A DNA stretch of 64,000 nt from NCBI GenBank assembly GCA_016928195.1, contig JAFGLF010000044.1, positions 248,001 to 312,000 on the forward strand, read 5' to 3'. The translations under genes were made by a program, and so were the position numbers. Under the pieces are notes generated by a model. The model was not told where the DNA came from. It saw only the letters and a program-made list of their open reading frames with translations, and did not search any database. Below, piece after piece: positions 30,797 to 45,977 of this stretch; the first letter of the stretch is position 1; each line of letters opens with the position of its first letter. The stretch is from Elusimicrobiota bacterium. GTDB taxonomy: Bacteria > Elusimicrobiota > UBA8919.

Positions 30797-31129
30797 ATGA
30801 AGTTTTACCTCAGAACCTACGGGTGTTTCAAAACCTCTAATGTAAAAAAGAAGATTAAACGTAAAAATAGATTTTTTGTCTATATAGTTCAATGTAGAGA
30901 TGGAACATATTATACAGGATACACGAATAATTTAAACAATAGGATTAATTTGCATAACAAAGGATTTGGGGCAAAATATTTAAGGGGAAAAGGACCAGTT
31001 AGATTGGTGTATGTGAAAGAGTATAGGTATTATAAAAATGCAATGACCATGGAAAGATATATTAAAAAGATGTCAAGGAAGCAAAAGGAAAAACTGATTA
31101 AAAATTATTCCCATAGTTTTACTCTATAG
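30797..31129 (+). CDS. Small GIY-YIG nuclease (UPF0213/YhbQ-like)
   Basis: The 110-residue protein carries a full GIY-YIG domain from residue 26: FVYIVQCRDGTYYTGYTNNL, NRINLHNKGFGAKYLRG, and KEYRYYKNAMTMERYIKKMS. Its first 10 residues, MKFYLRTYGC, resemble the conserved start of MiaB (FYVKTYGCQMN), and miaB begins right afterwards. The ORF thus seems to have captured a duplicated miaB 5' end. Single-domain GIY-YIG proteins are DNA endonucleases of unclear role. Confidence 0.85.
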   Translation: MKFYLRTYGCFKTSNVKKKIKRKNRFFVYIVQCRDGTYYTGYTNNLNNRINLHNKGFGAKYLRGKGPVRLVYVKEYRYYKNAMTMERYIKKMSRKQKEKLIKNYSHSFTL

Positions 31130-31158: not shown

Positions 31159-32331
31159 ATGAAAAAACCAAATCTAGATGTTCCCATAGATTTGCAAAGC
31201 AAATCTGACTCTGGGAACACCCATAGCCAGGTTTTGACATTCTATGTCAAAACCTATGGGTGTCAGATGAATATAGCTGATTCGGATTTTATTTCGGCAT
31301 ATCTCGGGTCCGCAGGACATAAACCAACCTCAAACCCCGAAAAAGCGGATATTATTCTTCTAAACACCTGCACAGTCAGACAGCATGCGGAAGAAAGGGC
31401 ATTGTCACACGTAGGACGATTGAAGAAACTCAAAATCAAGAATCCGGAATTAAAAATTATCGTGGTGGGCTGTGTGGCTTCCCGGCTGAAAGACAAACTA
31501 AAAAAAAGATTTAAGTATATTGATACTGTCATACCAGCTTACGATATAAAAAAAATACCTAAAATTCTTTCCAATTCCTGCGGTCCCCGGAAACTAAATG
31601 ACTATAATCTAAAATCAAGATTTGTTACTATTTCCCGGGGATGCTCAAATTATTGTTCGTATTGTATAGTTCCTTATGTACGTGGCGAGGAAATAGGCAG
31701 GCCGGAAAAAGAAATACTTAGTGAAGTCGAATTATGTATTTCAAACGGGTTTACCGAAATAACCCTACTGGGGCAGAATGTCAATAGTTACAAATTTAAA
31801 AATATCGATTTTTCCGATTTACTTAAAAAAATAAATATGTATAATAACATCAAAAGGATAAATTTCCTGACCAGCCACCCAAAAGATTTGTCGGATAGGA
31901 TAATAACTACCATAAGGGATTGTGAAAAGATTTCAAGAGAGATTCACCTGCCTGTTCAATCCGGCTCGGACAGAATTCTTAAACTTATGAACAGGCATTA
32001 CACAAAAGAGAAATACCTGAATCTTATAAAAAAGATGCAATCTGAAATTCCCGGGGTTTCATTTTCAACTGATATCATTGTAGGATTTCCATCTGAAACC
32101 GAAAAGGATTTTAACGAAACTCTTGGCCTTGTTAAAAAGGTCCGTTTCTCCAAAGCATTTACATTCAAGTATTCACCAAGAGAAAATACCAAAGCATATA
32201 AACTGACAGATGACGTACCGCTGAATATAAAAGAACAACGTCTTGCAAAACTAAACACCTTGCTCAAGAACTCAAAAACTCAAGAACTCAAGAACCCGCC
32301 ACTGAAGCTTCGGCGGGCAGGCTGTATCTAA
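31159..32331 (+). CDS. miaB: tRNA-2-methylthio-N6-dimethylallyladenosine synthase, C-terminally shortened
   Basis: The 390-residue radical-SAM methylthiotransferase has the N-terminal cluster motif TYGCQMN from residue 31, LNTCTVRQHAEERA, and the SAM cluster SRGCSNYCSYCIVPYVRGEE. Two things are odd. The first ~28 residues are encoded by two hairpins (31180-31218 and 31217-31263), the second partly an inverted copy of miaB's own codons. The C-terminal TRAM domain is missing: after KLNTLLKNS the frame runs into AACTCAAGAACTCAAG-type words and a CCCGCC...GGCGGG palindrome, ending at 390 where about 440 is usual. It modifies A37 of some tRNAs; miaA is nearby. Confidence 0.88.
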   Translation: MKKPNLDVPIDLQSKSDSGNTHSQVLTFYVKTYGCQMNIADSDFISAYLGSAGHKPTSNPEKADIILLNTCTVRQHAEERALSHVGRLKKLKIKNPELKIIVVGCVASRLKDKLKKRFKYIDTVIPAYDIKKIPKILSNSCGPRKLNDYNLKSRFVTISRGCSNYCSYCIVPYVRGEEIGRPEKEILSEVELCISNGFTEITLLGQNVNSYKFKNIDFSDLLKKINMYNNIKRINFLTSHPKDLSDRIITTIRDCEKISREIHLPVQSGSDRILKLMNRHYTKEKYLNLIKKMQSEIPGVSFSTDIIVGFPSETEKDFNETLGLVKKVRFSKAFTFKYSPRENTKAYKLTDDVPLNIKEQRLAKLNTLLKNSKTQELKNPPLKLRRAGCI

Positions 32332-37413: not shown

Positions 37414-37574
37414 CGATTACTGCGAGGCGTGAGCAAGAAATTTAGTCGGACACTAGAGGAACGCAGGGAATCCTCCGCGGAGGACTTCCAGACCCTTAAT
37501 TTGCGGCTACGCTTCCCAGGAGCAAATTCCGGAGTGAAAGCAATGGGATGGTTGCCCGAGCGGGTATGTAAAAA
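37414..37574. other. mutL-miaA spacer with TCCTCCGCGGAGGA palindrome
   Basis: The 160-base gap has a 14-bp palindrome TCCTCCGCGGAGGA (about 37490), the same core as in the two broken tRNA-Pro copies near 44 kb. A GCCCGAGCGGG hairpin lies near 37555. No gene or promoter was seen. Confidence 0.5.
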
Positions 37575-38507
37575 ATGAAGATGAAAAATGTTATTGTAAT
37601 TGCCGGGCCGACTGCAACAGGTAAAACAGAGGTTGCAATCAAATTGGCAAAAAAAATAAATGGTGAGATAATTTCAGCCGACTCACGCCAGATTTATAAA
37701 TATCTGGATATAGGAACAAATAAACCGGCAAAAAAACAACTGTCGTCCGTAAAACATTATCTGATTGACATCATTGAACCAACCGAAAACTTTACTGCAG
37801 GTGATTTTGCAAAACTTGCCAATAAAAAAATAAAAGAGATTCTCTCAAAAGGAAAAACACCGATTGTTACCGGCGGAACGGGTCTTTATATTAAAGCACT
37901 GATTGACGGACTTATAGAGGTTCCAAAAAACCCAACTGTCAGGAACAAACTAAACAATTATTATGAAAAATTCGGACTTGAATATCTTTATAAAAAACTT
38001 TATAAACTGGACCGGGAAACAGCGAAAACAATCGACAGAAATAATCCAAGACGGGTCATACGTGCATTGGAAATATATTATTCAACCGGAAAGAAATTTT
38101 CAGTATTAAAAAAAGAATCGGCTGATAACAGGAATCTGGGTTCCGGTTATAATTTCCTGATTTTCGGATTAAATAACCCGAGGACAAACCTATACAAAAA
38201 TATAAACAGGCGTGTCGATAAAATGATAAGAACCGGCCTGTTTAAAGAGGTCAGGAAACTTATAAAAAAATACTCATCACAAAACGATATTCTGCAGAAA
38301 ACAATCGGTTATAAAGAAATTATTGATTCTATGAATAATAAAACAACCCGGCTGGAGGCAATTAATCTAATAAAACAAAATACACGTAATTACGCAAAAA
38401 GACAAATTACCTGGTTCAAAAAAGATAAAAGGATTTTATGGGGAAATACTATGAATAATTCGCTAAAAAACATATTGAATTCAATAAGAAAATCTGGTAT
38501 AATTTAG
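37575..38507 (+). CDS. miaA: tRNA dimethylallyltransferase
   Basis: The 310-residue MiaA has the P-loop GPTATGKTEVAIKLA, DSRQIYKYLDIGTNKP, VKHYLIDIIEPTENFTAGDF, GTGLYIKALIDG, and the C-terminal RQITWFKKD. It adds dimethylallyl to A37 of tRNAs reading UNN codons, giving MiaB's substrate. A second ATG six bases downstream could also serve as start. The promoter of hflX lies in its last 35 bases. Confidence 0.95.
   Translation: MKMKNVIVIAGPTATGKTEVAIKLAKKINGEIISADSRQIYKYLDIGTNKPAKKQLSSVKHYLIDIIEPTENFTAGDFAKLANKKIKEILSKGKTPIVTGGTGLYIKALIDGLIEVPKNPTVRNKLNNYYEKFGLEYLYKKLYKLDRETAKTIDRNNPRRVIRALEIYYSTGKKFSVLKKESADNRNLGSGYNFLIFGLNNPRTNLYKNINRRVDKMIRTGLFKEVRKLIKKYSSQNDILQKTIGYKEIIDSMNNKTTRLEAINLIKQNTRNYAKRQITWFKKDKRILWGNTMNNSLKNILNSIRKSGII
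38475..38503 (+). promoter_or_regulatory. hflX promoter inside the miaA 3' end
   Basis: TTGAAT (38475-38480), exact 17-bp spacer, TATAAT (38498-38503). Eight bases later is the GTG start of hflX, so transcription would begin at or next to the start codon. Confidence 0.7.
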
Positions 38508-43079: not shown

Positions 43080-43667
43080 ATGAAATTTATTAGAAAACTT
43101 TATGATTGGGTATTGTCGTGGGCAGAATCCAAACATTCAAACTGGGCTCTTTTTCTGCTGGCATTTGCCGAATCATCCTTTTTTCCGGTACCTCCGGATG
43201 TTCTTTTAATTGCTCTGGCTATAGGAAAACCTGCAAAATCATTTTTCTATGCAGGTATCTGTACTATCGGTTCGGTGATGGGGGGAATCCTCGGCTATTT
43301 TATAGGATATGGTATCTGGGAAATAGTAAAAGACTTTTTCTTCAACTATGTCTTCAGCGAACAGATTTTTATTAAGGTTCAGACATTATATCAGCAGAAT
43401 GCATTTCTGGCTGTATTCACTGCCGGGTTCACTCCGATTCCATATAAGGTTTTTACAATAGCAGGCGGTGTATGCCAGATAGGATTAGCAATATTGATAA
43501 TTGCGTCTGCTTTTTCGCGTGGAGCAAGATTTTTTATTGTAGCAGGATTGTTATGGAAACTCGGCGGACCTGCAAAAAAATTTATTGACAAATATTTTAA
43601 TTTACTTACAATATTGTTTATTGTTCTTTTAATAGGCGGTTTTTTCATACTAAAAAAAATCTTTTAA
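43080..43667 (+). CDS. VTT/DedA-superfamily membrane protein (YqaA type)
   Basis: The 195-residue membrane protein starts with an amphipathic helix, then FAESSFFPVPPDVLLIALAI, GSVMGGILGYFIGYGIWE and AVFTAGFTPIPYKVFTIAGG. These are the glycine/proline motifs of YqaA-type VTT proteins. Related DedA proteins act as lipid flippases or transporters. Placed directly after pcm, probably in one transcript. Confidence 0.88.
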   Translation: MKFIRKLYDWVLSWAESKHSNWALFLLAFAESSFFPVPPDVLLIALAIGKPAKSFFYAGICTIGSVMGGILGYFIGYGIWEIVKDFFFNYVFSEQIFIKVQTLYQQNAFLAVFTAGFTPIPYKVFTIAGGVCQIGLAILIIASAFSRGARFFIVAGLLWKLGGPAKKFIDKYFNLLTILFIVLLIGGFFILKKIF

Positions 43668-43767
43668 GTTCTTATCTTTCGGAATAAAGTTTAGTTCTTA
43701 ATTCTTAACTCTCGAAGTGAAACGTAAATCCGCCGTGGCGGATTAATTCTTAATTCTGTCTTTATAT
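43668..43767. other. Spacer with TCCGCC palindrome before tRNA-Pro
   Basis: TTCTTAATTCTTAACTC-type words and AATCCGCCGTGGCGGATT (about 43727-43744). No promoter stands out. Confidence 0.5.
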
Positions 43768-43842
43768 CGGGGCGTAGCTCAGTCTGGTTAGAGCGCTGCG
43801 TTCGGGACGCAGAGGCCGCTGGTTCGAGTCCAGTCGCCCCGA
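43768..43842 (+). tRNA. tRNA-Pro (anticodon CGG)
   Basis: Acceptor arms CGGGGCG (43768-43774) and CGCCCCG (43835-43841), discriminator A43842. Anticodon stem CTGCG/CGCAG encloses TTCGGGA, anticodon CGG. The T arm CTGG-TTCGAGT-CCAG is normal. CCA is not encoded. Confidence 0.95.
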
Positions 43843-43870
43843 TTCTTAATTCTTAGTTCTGCCTTTATAT

Positions 43871-43940
43871 CGGGGCGTGGCCTAGTGGTAAGGTCCTCCG
43901 CGGAGGACTTGGGGTGCGAGTCACGATGGATCTTTGACCC
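43871..43940 (+). pseudogene. Broken tRNA-Pro copy with a palindrome in the anticodon arm
   Basis: The first 23 bases equal the intact tRNA-Pro(GGG) at 44210. Then seven bases of the anticodon stem are replaced by TCCTCCGCGGAGGAC, after which TTGGGGTGCGAG matches again. The T arm and acceptor 3' end are degenerate (TCACGATGGATCTTTGACCC). It cannot fold as a tRNA. Confidence 0.85.
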
Positions 43941-43961
43941 ACTATAATAGATTTTAAATGT

Positions 43962-44201
43962 ATGTTTTATGTTTATGTTTTGAAAAGTTTAAAGGATAAT
44001 AAGTTATATATAGGACATACATCGGATATTAAAAAAAGAGTTGAATGGCACAATGCAGGTAAACAAAAATCTACAAAATATAGATTACCGTTAAAACTTG
44101 CACATGTTGAAATTTTTTCTTCTCGTTCTGAAGCAATGAGACGTGAAAAAGAATTAAAGACAGGTAAAGGCAAAGATTTTTTAAAAAAGATTATTAAATA
44201 A
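43962..44201 (+). CDS. Small GIY-YIG nuclease-domain protein
   Basis: The 79-residue single-domain protein reads MFYVYVLKSLKDNKLYIGHT, then IKKRVEWHNAGKQKSTKYR and SRSEAMRREKELKTGKGKDF. The catalytic GIY-YIG Tyr residues, Arg (KRVEWHN) and Glu (RREKEL) are present. It sits between a broken and an intact tRNA-Pro copy. A TATAAT at 43943-43948 lies 13 bases before the ATG. It is most like short stand-alone GIY-YIG ORFs found beside tRNA genes. Confidence 0.88.
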   Translation: MFYVYVLKSLKDNKLYIGHTSDIKKRVEWHNAGKQKSTKYRLPLKLAHVEIFSSRSEAMRREKELKTGKGKDFLKKIIK

Positions 44202-44209
44202 GATAACAT

Positions 44210-44281
44210 CGGGGCGTGGCCTAGTGGTAAGGCACTCGCTTGGGGTGCGAGAGACCGTGGGTTCAATTCCCACCGCCCCGA
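44210..44281 (+). tRNA. tRNA-Pro (anticodon GGG)
   Basis: Acceptor arms CGGGGCG (44210-44216) and CGCCCCG (44274-44280), discriminator A44281. Anticodon stem CTCGC/GCGAG with loop TTGGGGT gives GGG. T arm GTGGG-TTCAATT-CCCAC. No encoded CCA. Confidence 0.95.
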
Positions 44282-44303
44282 TTTTAAAACCAAAGATTTA
44301 AAA

Positions 44304-44378
44304 CGGGACGTAGTGGTAAGGTCCTCCGCGGAGGACTTGGGGTGCGGATGGGTTTCCGCCACGGGCGGACCCCGATTC
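44304..44378 (+). pseudogene. Second broken tRNA-Pro copy with the same palindrome
   Basis: CGGGACGTAGTGGTAAGG, a shortened tRNA-Pro 5' half, is followed by the same TCCTCCGCGGAGGACTTGGG insert. Then come GGTGCGG and a TCCGCCACGGGCGGA palindrome where the T arm should be, ending CCCCGATT. Confidence 0.75.
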
Positions 44379-44420
44379 TTAACTAATAACTGACAACTTG
44401 TAGAATATTATTAAAAATAA

Positions 44421-45977
44421 ATGCTTTATAAAAAAGTAATACTTACAAATAAATCCCACCATATTATAAAGCTTTGTCTTTTAATTACACTCATTTTCTC
44501 ATTTTATTTAACATGCCTGGGCAATGAAATAACTTATAAAAACGGCTGGTTTTATGTTGACAGTGAAAGATTTTTTGTAAAAGGTGTCTGTTTTTTTGAA
44601 AATCATACAGTTGACGGAAAATTTACAAGATTGCCGCTGAACATAATAGACAGTGAGTTCAAGCTAATCAAAGAAGCAGGGTTCAATACTATACGCTCAC
44701 AGTTAAACTCAGAAGAGCTCAAACTTGCAGAAAAACACGGGCTTATGGTCATGCAGGGCGCCAACCATCTTTTCTTTTCCGAAGAATATAAAAATCCCAA
44801 ATTTATTGAAGAACAAAAAACAACAACAAAAAAAATCATGCAGTATTCCAAAGAGCATGACAACATTCTTTTTTATATTATAGATAATGAACCTAATGTA
44901 AAAGCAATATACCGGCAGGGAGAGAAAGCAATAACAGGATTTTATAATTCACTGATAAATACGGTTAAAAACGTACAGACGAATGCGGTAGTTTCAATGG
45001 CTTCAATGCCGCCTGTCTCGTTTCTGGACCATACTATTTTTGACTGTTTGTCATTGAACCTTTATCCGTATTATCCGGCATCTTTTGACTGTGTTAGTTA
45101 TTCTGAATATGCGGAATGGTTCAAAAATAAATATGCAGATGGCAAACCTTTTATAATAAGCGAATACGGATGGGATGTAACAAGAGGCGAACACGGTTTT
45201 AGCGAAAATATGATACGCCTTCTTAACGAACAAATAAAATCCGGAGCAACAGGCTCATTTTTATTCACATGGCGGACATTCGGGACAGAAGGTAAAGATG
45301 ACAATAACTGGTTTGGTATTGTTCCTAATAATGGCGGATGGGATAGTTATAAAGCCAAGCCTCGTAATATTTACTATGACCTTAAAAACTATTTTCAGGC
45401 AATCATAATTGAACCTAAAAAAGAAGAAGTTTATTATAAGGAACTGCCTGTAGAGGTGTATGGAACAGATAAAACCGGAAGTATAAGCATCAGTTTTAAT
45501 AAGAAAATATACTCTCTTAAGAAAAAAGGTAAATACTGGTGGACAGTAAAAATACCGTTATCCTCCGCTGAAAAAGGCAAGAAAATATTAGCCGTTACAT
45601 CAAAGGATAAAAAAGGGAAAATATTGGTTAAAAAGGAAGTACCTTTTTACATACTTCCGGAAAAGAAATCGTTGAGTGTAAAAATAACCAGGCAGTTCCG
45701 TGAGTTAAATGAAACAGATACTTACAAGGCAAAAATAAGAGTAACTGACCATAACGGGAATCCTATACCAAACTGTATAATCAAATTAGGGGTCAACCAG
45801 ACAGAAGTTGATGTCTGGACATGTAAGGTTTTTACAGGCAAGACCGATAAAAACGGGGAATATTTTTTCAGATATAACCGTGTTAAGCAGGGATATTTTA
45901 CATTAATGGCTGGTATTCACGGAAGTGACCCCGGTATTAAAACATACTGTGATGTTGATATTGTTAGGATAAATTAA
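44421..45977 (+). CDS. Secreted clan GH-A-type glycoside hydrolase
   Basis: The 518-residue protein has an N-terminal signal/anchor segment (KLCLLITLIFSFYLTCLG). A (beta/alpha)8 barrel spans about 40-330: VDSERFFVKGVCFFEN, AGFNTIRSQL, FYIIDNEPN with the likely acid/base Glu157, and FIISEYGWD with the likely nucleophile Glu248. Two beta-sandwich-like segments follow (about 335-410 and 425-518, the latter Ig/transthyretin-like). Family and substrate cannot be fixed. A GH144-type gene lies 18 bases downstream. Confidence 0.78.
   Translation: MLYKKVILTNKSHHIIKLCLLITLIFSFYLTCLGNEITYKNGWFYVDSERFFVKGVCFFENHTVDGKFTRLPLNIIDSEFKLIKEAGFNTIRSQLNSEELKLAEKHGLMVMQGANHLFFSEEYKNPKFIEEQKTTTKKIMQYSKEHDNILFYIIDNEPNVKAIYRQGEKAITGFYNSLINTVKNVQTNAVVSMASMPPVSFLDHTIFDCLSLNLYPYYPASFDCVSYSEYAEWFKNKYADGKPFIISEYGWDVTRGEHGFSENMIRLLNEQIKSGATGSFLFTWRTFGTEGKDDNNWFGIVPNNGGWDSYKAKPRNIYYDLKNYFQAIIIEPKKEEVYYKELPVEVYGTDKTGSISISFNKKIYSLKKKGKYWWTVKIPLSSAEKGKKILAVTSKDKKGKILVKKEVPFYILPEKKSLSVKITRQFRELNETDTYKAKIRVTDHNGNPIPNCIIKLGVNQTEVDVWTCKVFTGKTDKNGEYFFRYNRVKQGYFTLMAGIHGSDPGIKTYCDVDIVRIN

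Follow-up and report, generated by a model that had tools for sequence, protein, structure and literature searches.

The tRNA-Pro locus in the window

The window analysed here is a 64,000-nucleotide stretch of an Elusimicrobiota MAG, an incomplete genome of 2.37 Mb on 87 contigs in which 36 tRNAs were found and some isoacceptors are missing. Between positions 43768 and 44378, the first-pass annotation had reported tRNA-Pro(CGG), a broken tRNA-Pro (copy A), a GIY-YIG gene, an intact tRNA-Pro(GGG) and a second broken tRNA-Pro (copy B), in this order, and the arrangement was confirmed with ARAGORN, Rfam and alignments. Throughout, A is the 5' part of a target tRNA, T is the complete tRNA of the same isoacceptor and B is the 3' part. 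The features of the locus are:

43767..43843, + strand: intact tRNA-Pro(CGG) (ARAGORN, Rfam), a neighbour outside the cassette whose body differs from both broken copies
about 43870..43942, + strand: broken copy A of tRNA-Pro(GGG), the 5' part with a palindrome, degenerate past the anticodon arm
43893..43908, no strand: palindrome GTCCTCCGCGGAGGAC in copy A, perfect, 16 bp
43962..44201, + strand: small free-standing GIY-YIG nuclease gene, 79 aa, single domain (Pfam PF01541)
44209..44282, + strand: intact tRNA-Pro(GGG), the putative replacement copy (ARAGORN)
44304..44376, + strand: broken copy B of tRNA-Pro(GGG), with the palindrome as in copy A and then the 3' end
44321..44336, no strand: palindrome GTCCTCCGCGGAGGAC in copy B, perfect, 16 bp

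The two intact tRNA-Pro genes scored 67 and 71 bits with Rfam RF00005. This model reported neither broken copy at the window locus, and no group I intron or other Rfam family covering the insert was found at 43600-44500. Alignment identified tRNA-Pro(GGG), not tRNA-Pro(CGG), as the source of copies A and B. The two copies have a 43-nt stretch in common that is 93% identical, and in both of them the native bases of the 5' anticodon stem are replaced by GTCCTCCGCGGAGGAC, in agreement with the insert that had been noted at this place in each copy. The 5' fragment in copy A aligned to the intact GGG gene with a Smith-Waterman score of 52 (match +2, mismatch -3), compared to a background 95th percentile of 26. 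The intact gene at 44209-44282 is the only GGG isoacceptor found in this incomplete MAG.

The nuclease protein

The ORF at 43962-44201 matched PF01541 with 62.2 bits (cut-off 22.6, E = 5.9e-17), with residues 1-70 covered. The GIY-YIG residues Y5, Y16, G18, R26, H30 and E62 are invariant across 12 members of the family. By its domain score and catalytic residues, the window protein is a member of the GIY-YIG nuclease superfamily. The structures nearest to the family profile are UPF0213 proteins (1zg2, 4.9e-15; 1ywl, 1.5e-12), followed by matches to I-TevI (1mk0) and SLX1 (6seh, 1.5e-4). Similarity to UPF0213 and Slx1-like small GIY-YIG proteins spans most of the short protein, and phage homing endonuclease families gave only partial matches to it. 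The attached DNA-binding region of SegB-like enzymes is absent from this 79-aa protein, in which the domain fills residues 1-70.

Other GIY-YIG genes in the same genome

The genome holds five stand-alone small GIY-YIG genes. All four that belong to the subfamily of the window gene precede a tRNA on the same strand: Pro(GGG) at 7 bp, Ser(TGA) at 14 bp, Gln(CTG) at 11 bp and Ala(CGC) at 66 bp. Each of these tRNAs is single copy among the 36 found in the incomplete MAG. An upstream 5' fragment of the matching tRNA is present at three of the four loci (Pro, Ser and Gln); the tRNA-Ala locus (L004) has no clear upstream fragment.

The fifth gene also lies in the window, where it precedes miaB:

30797..31129, + strand: another GIY-YIG gene, 110 aa, in the same layout
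31159..32331, + strand: intact miaB downstream of it (tblastn to L042 and L070); palindromic sequence is present at the miaB 5' end

The first-pass annotation had already cited miaB as a parallel case, and this case is real. The ORF at 30797-31129 starts with MKFYLRTYGC, which resembles the miaB start FYVKTYGC, and the layout recurs in L042 and L070, the latter from another family and with its own 5' miaB-like fragment. The miaB copy in L001 was missed by the flank-against-flank test because the fragment sits inside the ORF; it was spotted by eye and is backed by L070. GIY-YIG genes before miaB form one well-supported clade, sister to the tRNA-associated subfamily, in a protein tree of 87 columns with many unresolved forks, whose use was restricted to the miaB, Ser, Trp and Arg clusters. 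As a separate observation, palindromes are present in three genomes (window 31180-31262, L042 and L070) at the 5' end of the miaB that follows the nuclease gene. These are partly fold-backs of miaB's own start, and the predicted MiaB N-terminus is lengthened.

Survey of Elusimicrobiota

GIY-YIG genes were collected from two sets of genomes, the class to which the window belongs and a sample of 150 Elusimicrobiota genomes. The subfamily, the STK type of the window gene, was defined by a simple motif rule. A same-strand tRNA lies no more than 100 bp downstream of 16 of the 23 STK-type genes, compared to none of the 109 other small GIY-YIG genes (p=1.6e-15). This value is indicative only, since the rule was drawn up with the first cases already known and related loci are in part dependent on one another. 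The isoacceptors hit in this phylum are those for Pro, Ser, Gln, Asp, Cys, Arg, Lys and Gly. At most subfamily loci an upstream fragment of the same tRNA scored 30-74, against the background 95th percentile of 26.

In the usual layout, A precedes the nuclease gene, T begins at the stop codon of that gene or shortly behind it, and B often comes next. Clear A-nuclease-T-B arrangements were found at tRNA-Asp (L033), tRNA-Cys (L037), tRNA-Ser (L043), tRNA-Pro (L106) and tRNA-Gly (L148). In L033, L043, L087, L106 and L148, the last codons of the nuclease ORF fall within the 5' end of T. In a variant found at tRNA-Arg (L026) and tRNA-Ser (L110), the order is A-nuclease-A'-T and a remnant of the start of the nuclease gene is present; L275 is also A-nuclease-A'-T. 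Another variant has T ahead of the nuclease (tRNA-Gln L100, tRNA-Pro L134, L263 and G206).

The idea that small GIY-YIG genes spread with duplication of their target thus stands for one subfamily, at about ten tRNA isoacceptors and miaB. Its generalisation to all small GIY-YIG genes was rejected, given the 0 of 109 in other classes. One of these other classes is found on the 3' side of a tRNA gene, which is tRNA-Gly(CCC) in the window's own family and tRNA-Gln(TTG) in a different one, with no evident duplication in either (L016-L020; L063, L066, L069, L084 and L090).

Other phyla and viral contigs

A tight family profile was run against 84,980 genomes and yielded 80 loci, 49 of which have a tRNA within 500 bp. 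The nuclease-tRNA layout is also found in Patescibacteria, Bacteroidota and Omnitrophota. Examples with a fragment are tRNA-Arg(TCG) in Flavobacteriaceae, tRNA-Met in Marixanthotalea, tRNA-Arg(CCT) in Pedobacter, tRNA-Ser(TGA) in Omnitrophota and tRNA-Trp in Parcubacteria. Isoacceptors outside Elusimicrobiota include Trp, Met, Phe and Arg(TCG). An artefact of MAG assembly is excluded because several carriers are cultured isolates.

Phages were considered as a vehicle and rejected: the query had just 2 relatives among 2.9 million viral contigs. On one of the two contigs (L332), the related GIY-YIG gene has a tRNA-Lys(TTT) about 60 bp downstream.

Empty sites and a split tRNA-Ser

Empty sites, which the first-pass annotation had proposed to look for, were found in two groups of relatives. 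Among 121 genomes of a Flavobacterium group, five have the cassette at tRNA-Arg(TCG) after one conserved upstream region. About 25 inspected Flavobacterium loci have an intact tRNA-Arg after the same upstream region and no nuclease. At the clearest empty sites, about 290 bp of the query are missing, with a 22-nt overlap at the tRNA 5' end. The T of the Flavobacterium cassette is almost identical to the tRNA of the empty sites.

The second case is a tRNA-Ser in an Elusimicrobiota genome (G004), which is split by the nuclease gene plus a second tRNA-Ser. In the acceptor stem at L041, A and B pair with each other at 7/7 positions and with T at only 5/7; the A/B stem in G004 is GGAGAGG/CCTCTCC and the T stem is GGAGGCG/CGCCTCC. 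A congener, G006, has an unsplit tRNA-Ser(TGA) with the same acceptor stem as A/B, behind the same upstream gene. Since the A/B stem is unlike that of T and the gene in G006 is unsplit, a tRNA gene was broken here and a different complete one now lies inside it. A mismatch of the same kind is present in the acceptor stem at a tRNA-Trp locus (L265). The T of G004 is 100% identical over 90 bp to the tRNA-Ser(TGA) of G003, which belongs to another genus, and has no match in G005 or G006. From this identity we infer that T in G004 was acquired horizontally; the alternative is loss in both G005 and G006. The nuclease gene in G004 contains a stop codon. The expectation that an intact gene is regenerated therefore held in that an intact copy is present, but this copy need not be the host's own, as T in G004 is a different tRNA.

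A probable mobile cassette with a replacement gene

As in homing endonucleases, the gene is present in some genomes and absent from others at an orthologous site (Flavobacterium; G004 compared to G006), and it lies outside any intron or intein. As read from the sequences, these loci show insertion, splitting of the tRNA, an intact tRNA of the same isoacceptor and physical overlap of nuclease and T. They are probably mobile cassettes that pair a small free-standing, homing-type GIY-YIG nuclease gene with a full copy of the gene that was entered. The element looks like a selfish unit that breaks an essential gene and supplies a working spare.

In this model, the nuclease would cut the tRNA gene of a chromosome without the cassette. 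The left end would then pair with copy A of the donor, so that the tRNA halves act as homology arms, and repair would copy the nuclease gene together with T. An essential single-copy tRNA would thereby be broken and replaced in one step. If T recombined with the 3' half of the recipient's gene, no B would be left; otherwise the result would be A-nuclease-T-B. The same logic could hold for the sister clade at miaB.

Several points count against the cassette model. It leaves unaccounted for how T escapes cutting, because the Flavobacterium T is almost identical to the tRNA of empty sites. The choice of target is likewise unaccounted for, because the protein, unlike known homing endonucleases, has no room for a separate DNA-binding domain. 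The locus without a clear fragment (L004) and the deviating layouts (L100, L134, L263 and G206; L026, L110 and L275) also speak against it. For the window locus itself, the relatives compared were about 12 more distant ones, with no congener among them, and they give no closely related empty site.

Palindromes and alternative explanations

Another possible explanation is that the nuclease is guided by structure, not by sequence, and opens hairpins, such as tRNA arms and short palindromes, the palindromes being the real or co-mobilised units, much like REP sequences with RAYT transposases. The match of the protein profile to the structure-specific SLX1 is consistent with this. Inverted arms around small GIY-YIG genes also support it: they scored at least 28 at 23% of 210 loci, compared to 0.4% of mismatched pairs, and their excess over mismatched controls is about 60-fold across all loci. 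Of 30 broken tRNA copies, 21 have a GC-rich palindrome above the 95% background level, and these palindromes sit at similar places in unrelated phyla; the count, however, includes residual stems of the broken tRNAs. The identical A and B repeats of L043, 62 bp including the palindrome, would fit staggered nicks around a cruciform. Against a structure-guided nuclease, palindromes are also solitary and far from any GIY-YIG gene, and a palindrome does not account for the carriage of an intact tRNA. We consider this explanation unlikely. A broader reading, in which small GIY-YIG proteins are structure-guided nucleases that enter hairpin DNA, one branch swaps essential tRNA genes between genera and the palindromes are non-autonomous partners, is slightly less doubtful and is offered tentatively.

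The palindromes were also followed in their own right. With up to 2 mismatches, the 14-mer core TCCTCCGCGGAGGA was found 4 times in the window, compared to 0.11 expected, and the window contains 22 GC-rich perfect palindromes. Across the genome there are 8 exact copies of the core, of which the two at this locus alone adjoin a GIY-YIG gene. Because exact copies are mostly away from GIY-YIG genes, we regard the palindrome as a separate dispersed repeat. The proposal that it is the nuclease's own site was rejected as stated: it is dispersed and mostly elsewhere, though over-represented in broken copies. At 37420-37575 of the window, a copy of TCCTCCGCGGAGGA lies beside an apparent short 5' fragment of a tRNA just before miaA, with no nuclease gene; this site is possibly a relic. 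The Flavobacterium palindrome is rare, with 2 exact copies in G150 and none in G206 or G268, and it too can be solitary. In G155 (L335), this palindrome, CCTGCCTGCCGGCAGGCAGG, interrupts an apparent integrase gene, which suggests that it inserts on its own.

Small GIY-YIG genes of the other large class (GITSNL..YEHK..GFTKKY) often have REP-like flanks, GTCATTGCGAGG..GAAGCAATCTC and GTCATTCCCGCG..CGGGAATCC, in many cases as inverted pairs (L022, L024, L027, L032, L034, L059, L082, L095, L120, L139 and others). Some related genes without a complete tRNA cassette lie between inverted arms, at L080, L099, L103, L146, L038 and L141. They look as if set in the loop of a palindrome, and the right arm may encode the protein's last residues. 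Membership of RAYT/REP systems was not indicated at the tRNA-Pro locus of the window: there is no Y1 HUH transposase, and the sole gene between the repeats is the GIY-YIG gene.

Plain tandem duplication of a tRNA, with decay of the spare copy and the nuclease gene as a passenger between the copies, is very improbable. tRNA genes are known to duplicate and decay, and extra partial copies are present at L026, L110, L275 and L273. Tandem duplication does not account for the 0 of 109 in other small GIY-YIG classes of the same genomes, or for Flavobacterium empty sites with one tRNA and no nuclease. In addition, the intact tRNA in L041 and L265 is not a duplicate of the broken one. tRNA-Pro(GGG) is present in about 12 more distant relatives, compared without regard to synteny, and mostly has no adjacent fragment.

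Least credible of all is that the nuclease is a host gene that acts on tRNA (processing, repair or regulation) and for this reason lies beside tRNA genes: it would fit the association both with tRNA genes and with miaB, whose product modifies tRNA, and a fusion of a prokaryotic Slx1 relative with a tRNA methyltransferase has been described (PMC1564403), but the gene is patchy within one genus, occurs with many different tRNAs and broken target copies, and the copies of one genome are scattered in the protein tree.

Significance and comparison with known systems

Most work on free-standing homing nucleases has dealt with phages and organelles. The cassettes point to a chromosomal version of very small size, present in several bacterial phyla, whose targets are single-copy tRNA genes and which brings a substitute for them. 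The literature searched, of which coverage was incomplete, contained no description of such an arrangement on bacterial chromosomes. An element of this type would be a natural counterpart of a home-and-rescue drive and a means by which tRNA genes could be replaced horizontally, and it would give a function to abundant genes annotated merely as GIY-YIG family protein. Since there are cultured Flavobacterium species with and without the element, the hypothesis is testable.

Genomic islands with tyrosine integrases also insert at tRNA genes and leave one working copy and a fragment. The cassettes resemble them in both respects. They differ in that the insert is about 0.3 kb, with no integrase or island, and in that the usual relic is the upstream 5' part rather than the 3' part.

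SegB, which belongs to the tRNA region of phages T4 and T6, is a free-standing GIY-YIG homing endonuclease; its homologs are often near tRNAs in phage genomes, and microhomology between a tRNA 5' end and the segB 3' end has been reported (PMC2988022; PMC13096335). The cassettes likewise have a free-standing GIY-YIG gene beside tRNA genes and no intron, and their nuclease/tRNA overlaps echo the segB microhomology. Unlike SegB, they lie in bacterial chromosomes and encode far smaller, single-domain proteins. Here, too, the target tRNA is split, its 5' and often 3' parts remain and a complete tRNA of the same isoacceptor is carried.

Mobile ORFs that bring a replacement gene end have been described in fungal mitochondria, in atp6 of Allomyces and in atp6, atp9, cox2 and nad3 of Glomus sp. 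(PMC3630166). As in the cassettes, an endonuclease gene lies in an essential gene, the displaced native end remains as a relic and function is kept through a copy that arrives with the nuclease, sometimes from another species. The fungal elements replace the 3' end of a mitochondrial protein gene; the bacterial cassettes affect entire tRNA genes or, in the case of miaB, the 5' end.

In synthetic home-and-rescue gene drives, a single element both cuts an essential gene and provides a functional copy of it (PMC7968924). The cassettes would combine the same two functions, with the cutting inferred. In contrast to these drives, which are engineered and recoded, the cassettes are natural, and in Flavobacterium the tRNA sequence is almost unchanged. 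By analogy, then, the cassette appears to work most like free-standing homing endonucleases such as SegB and like the replacement-bearing mobile ORFs of mitochondria.
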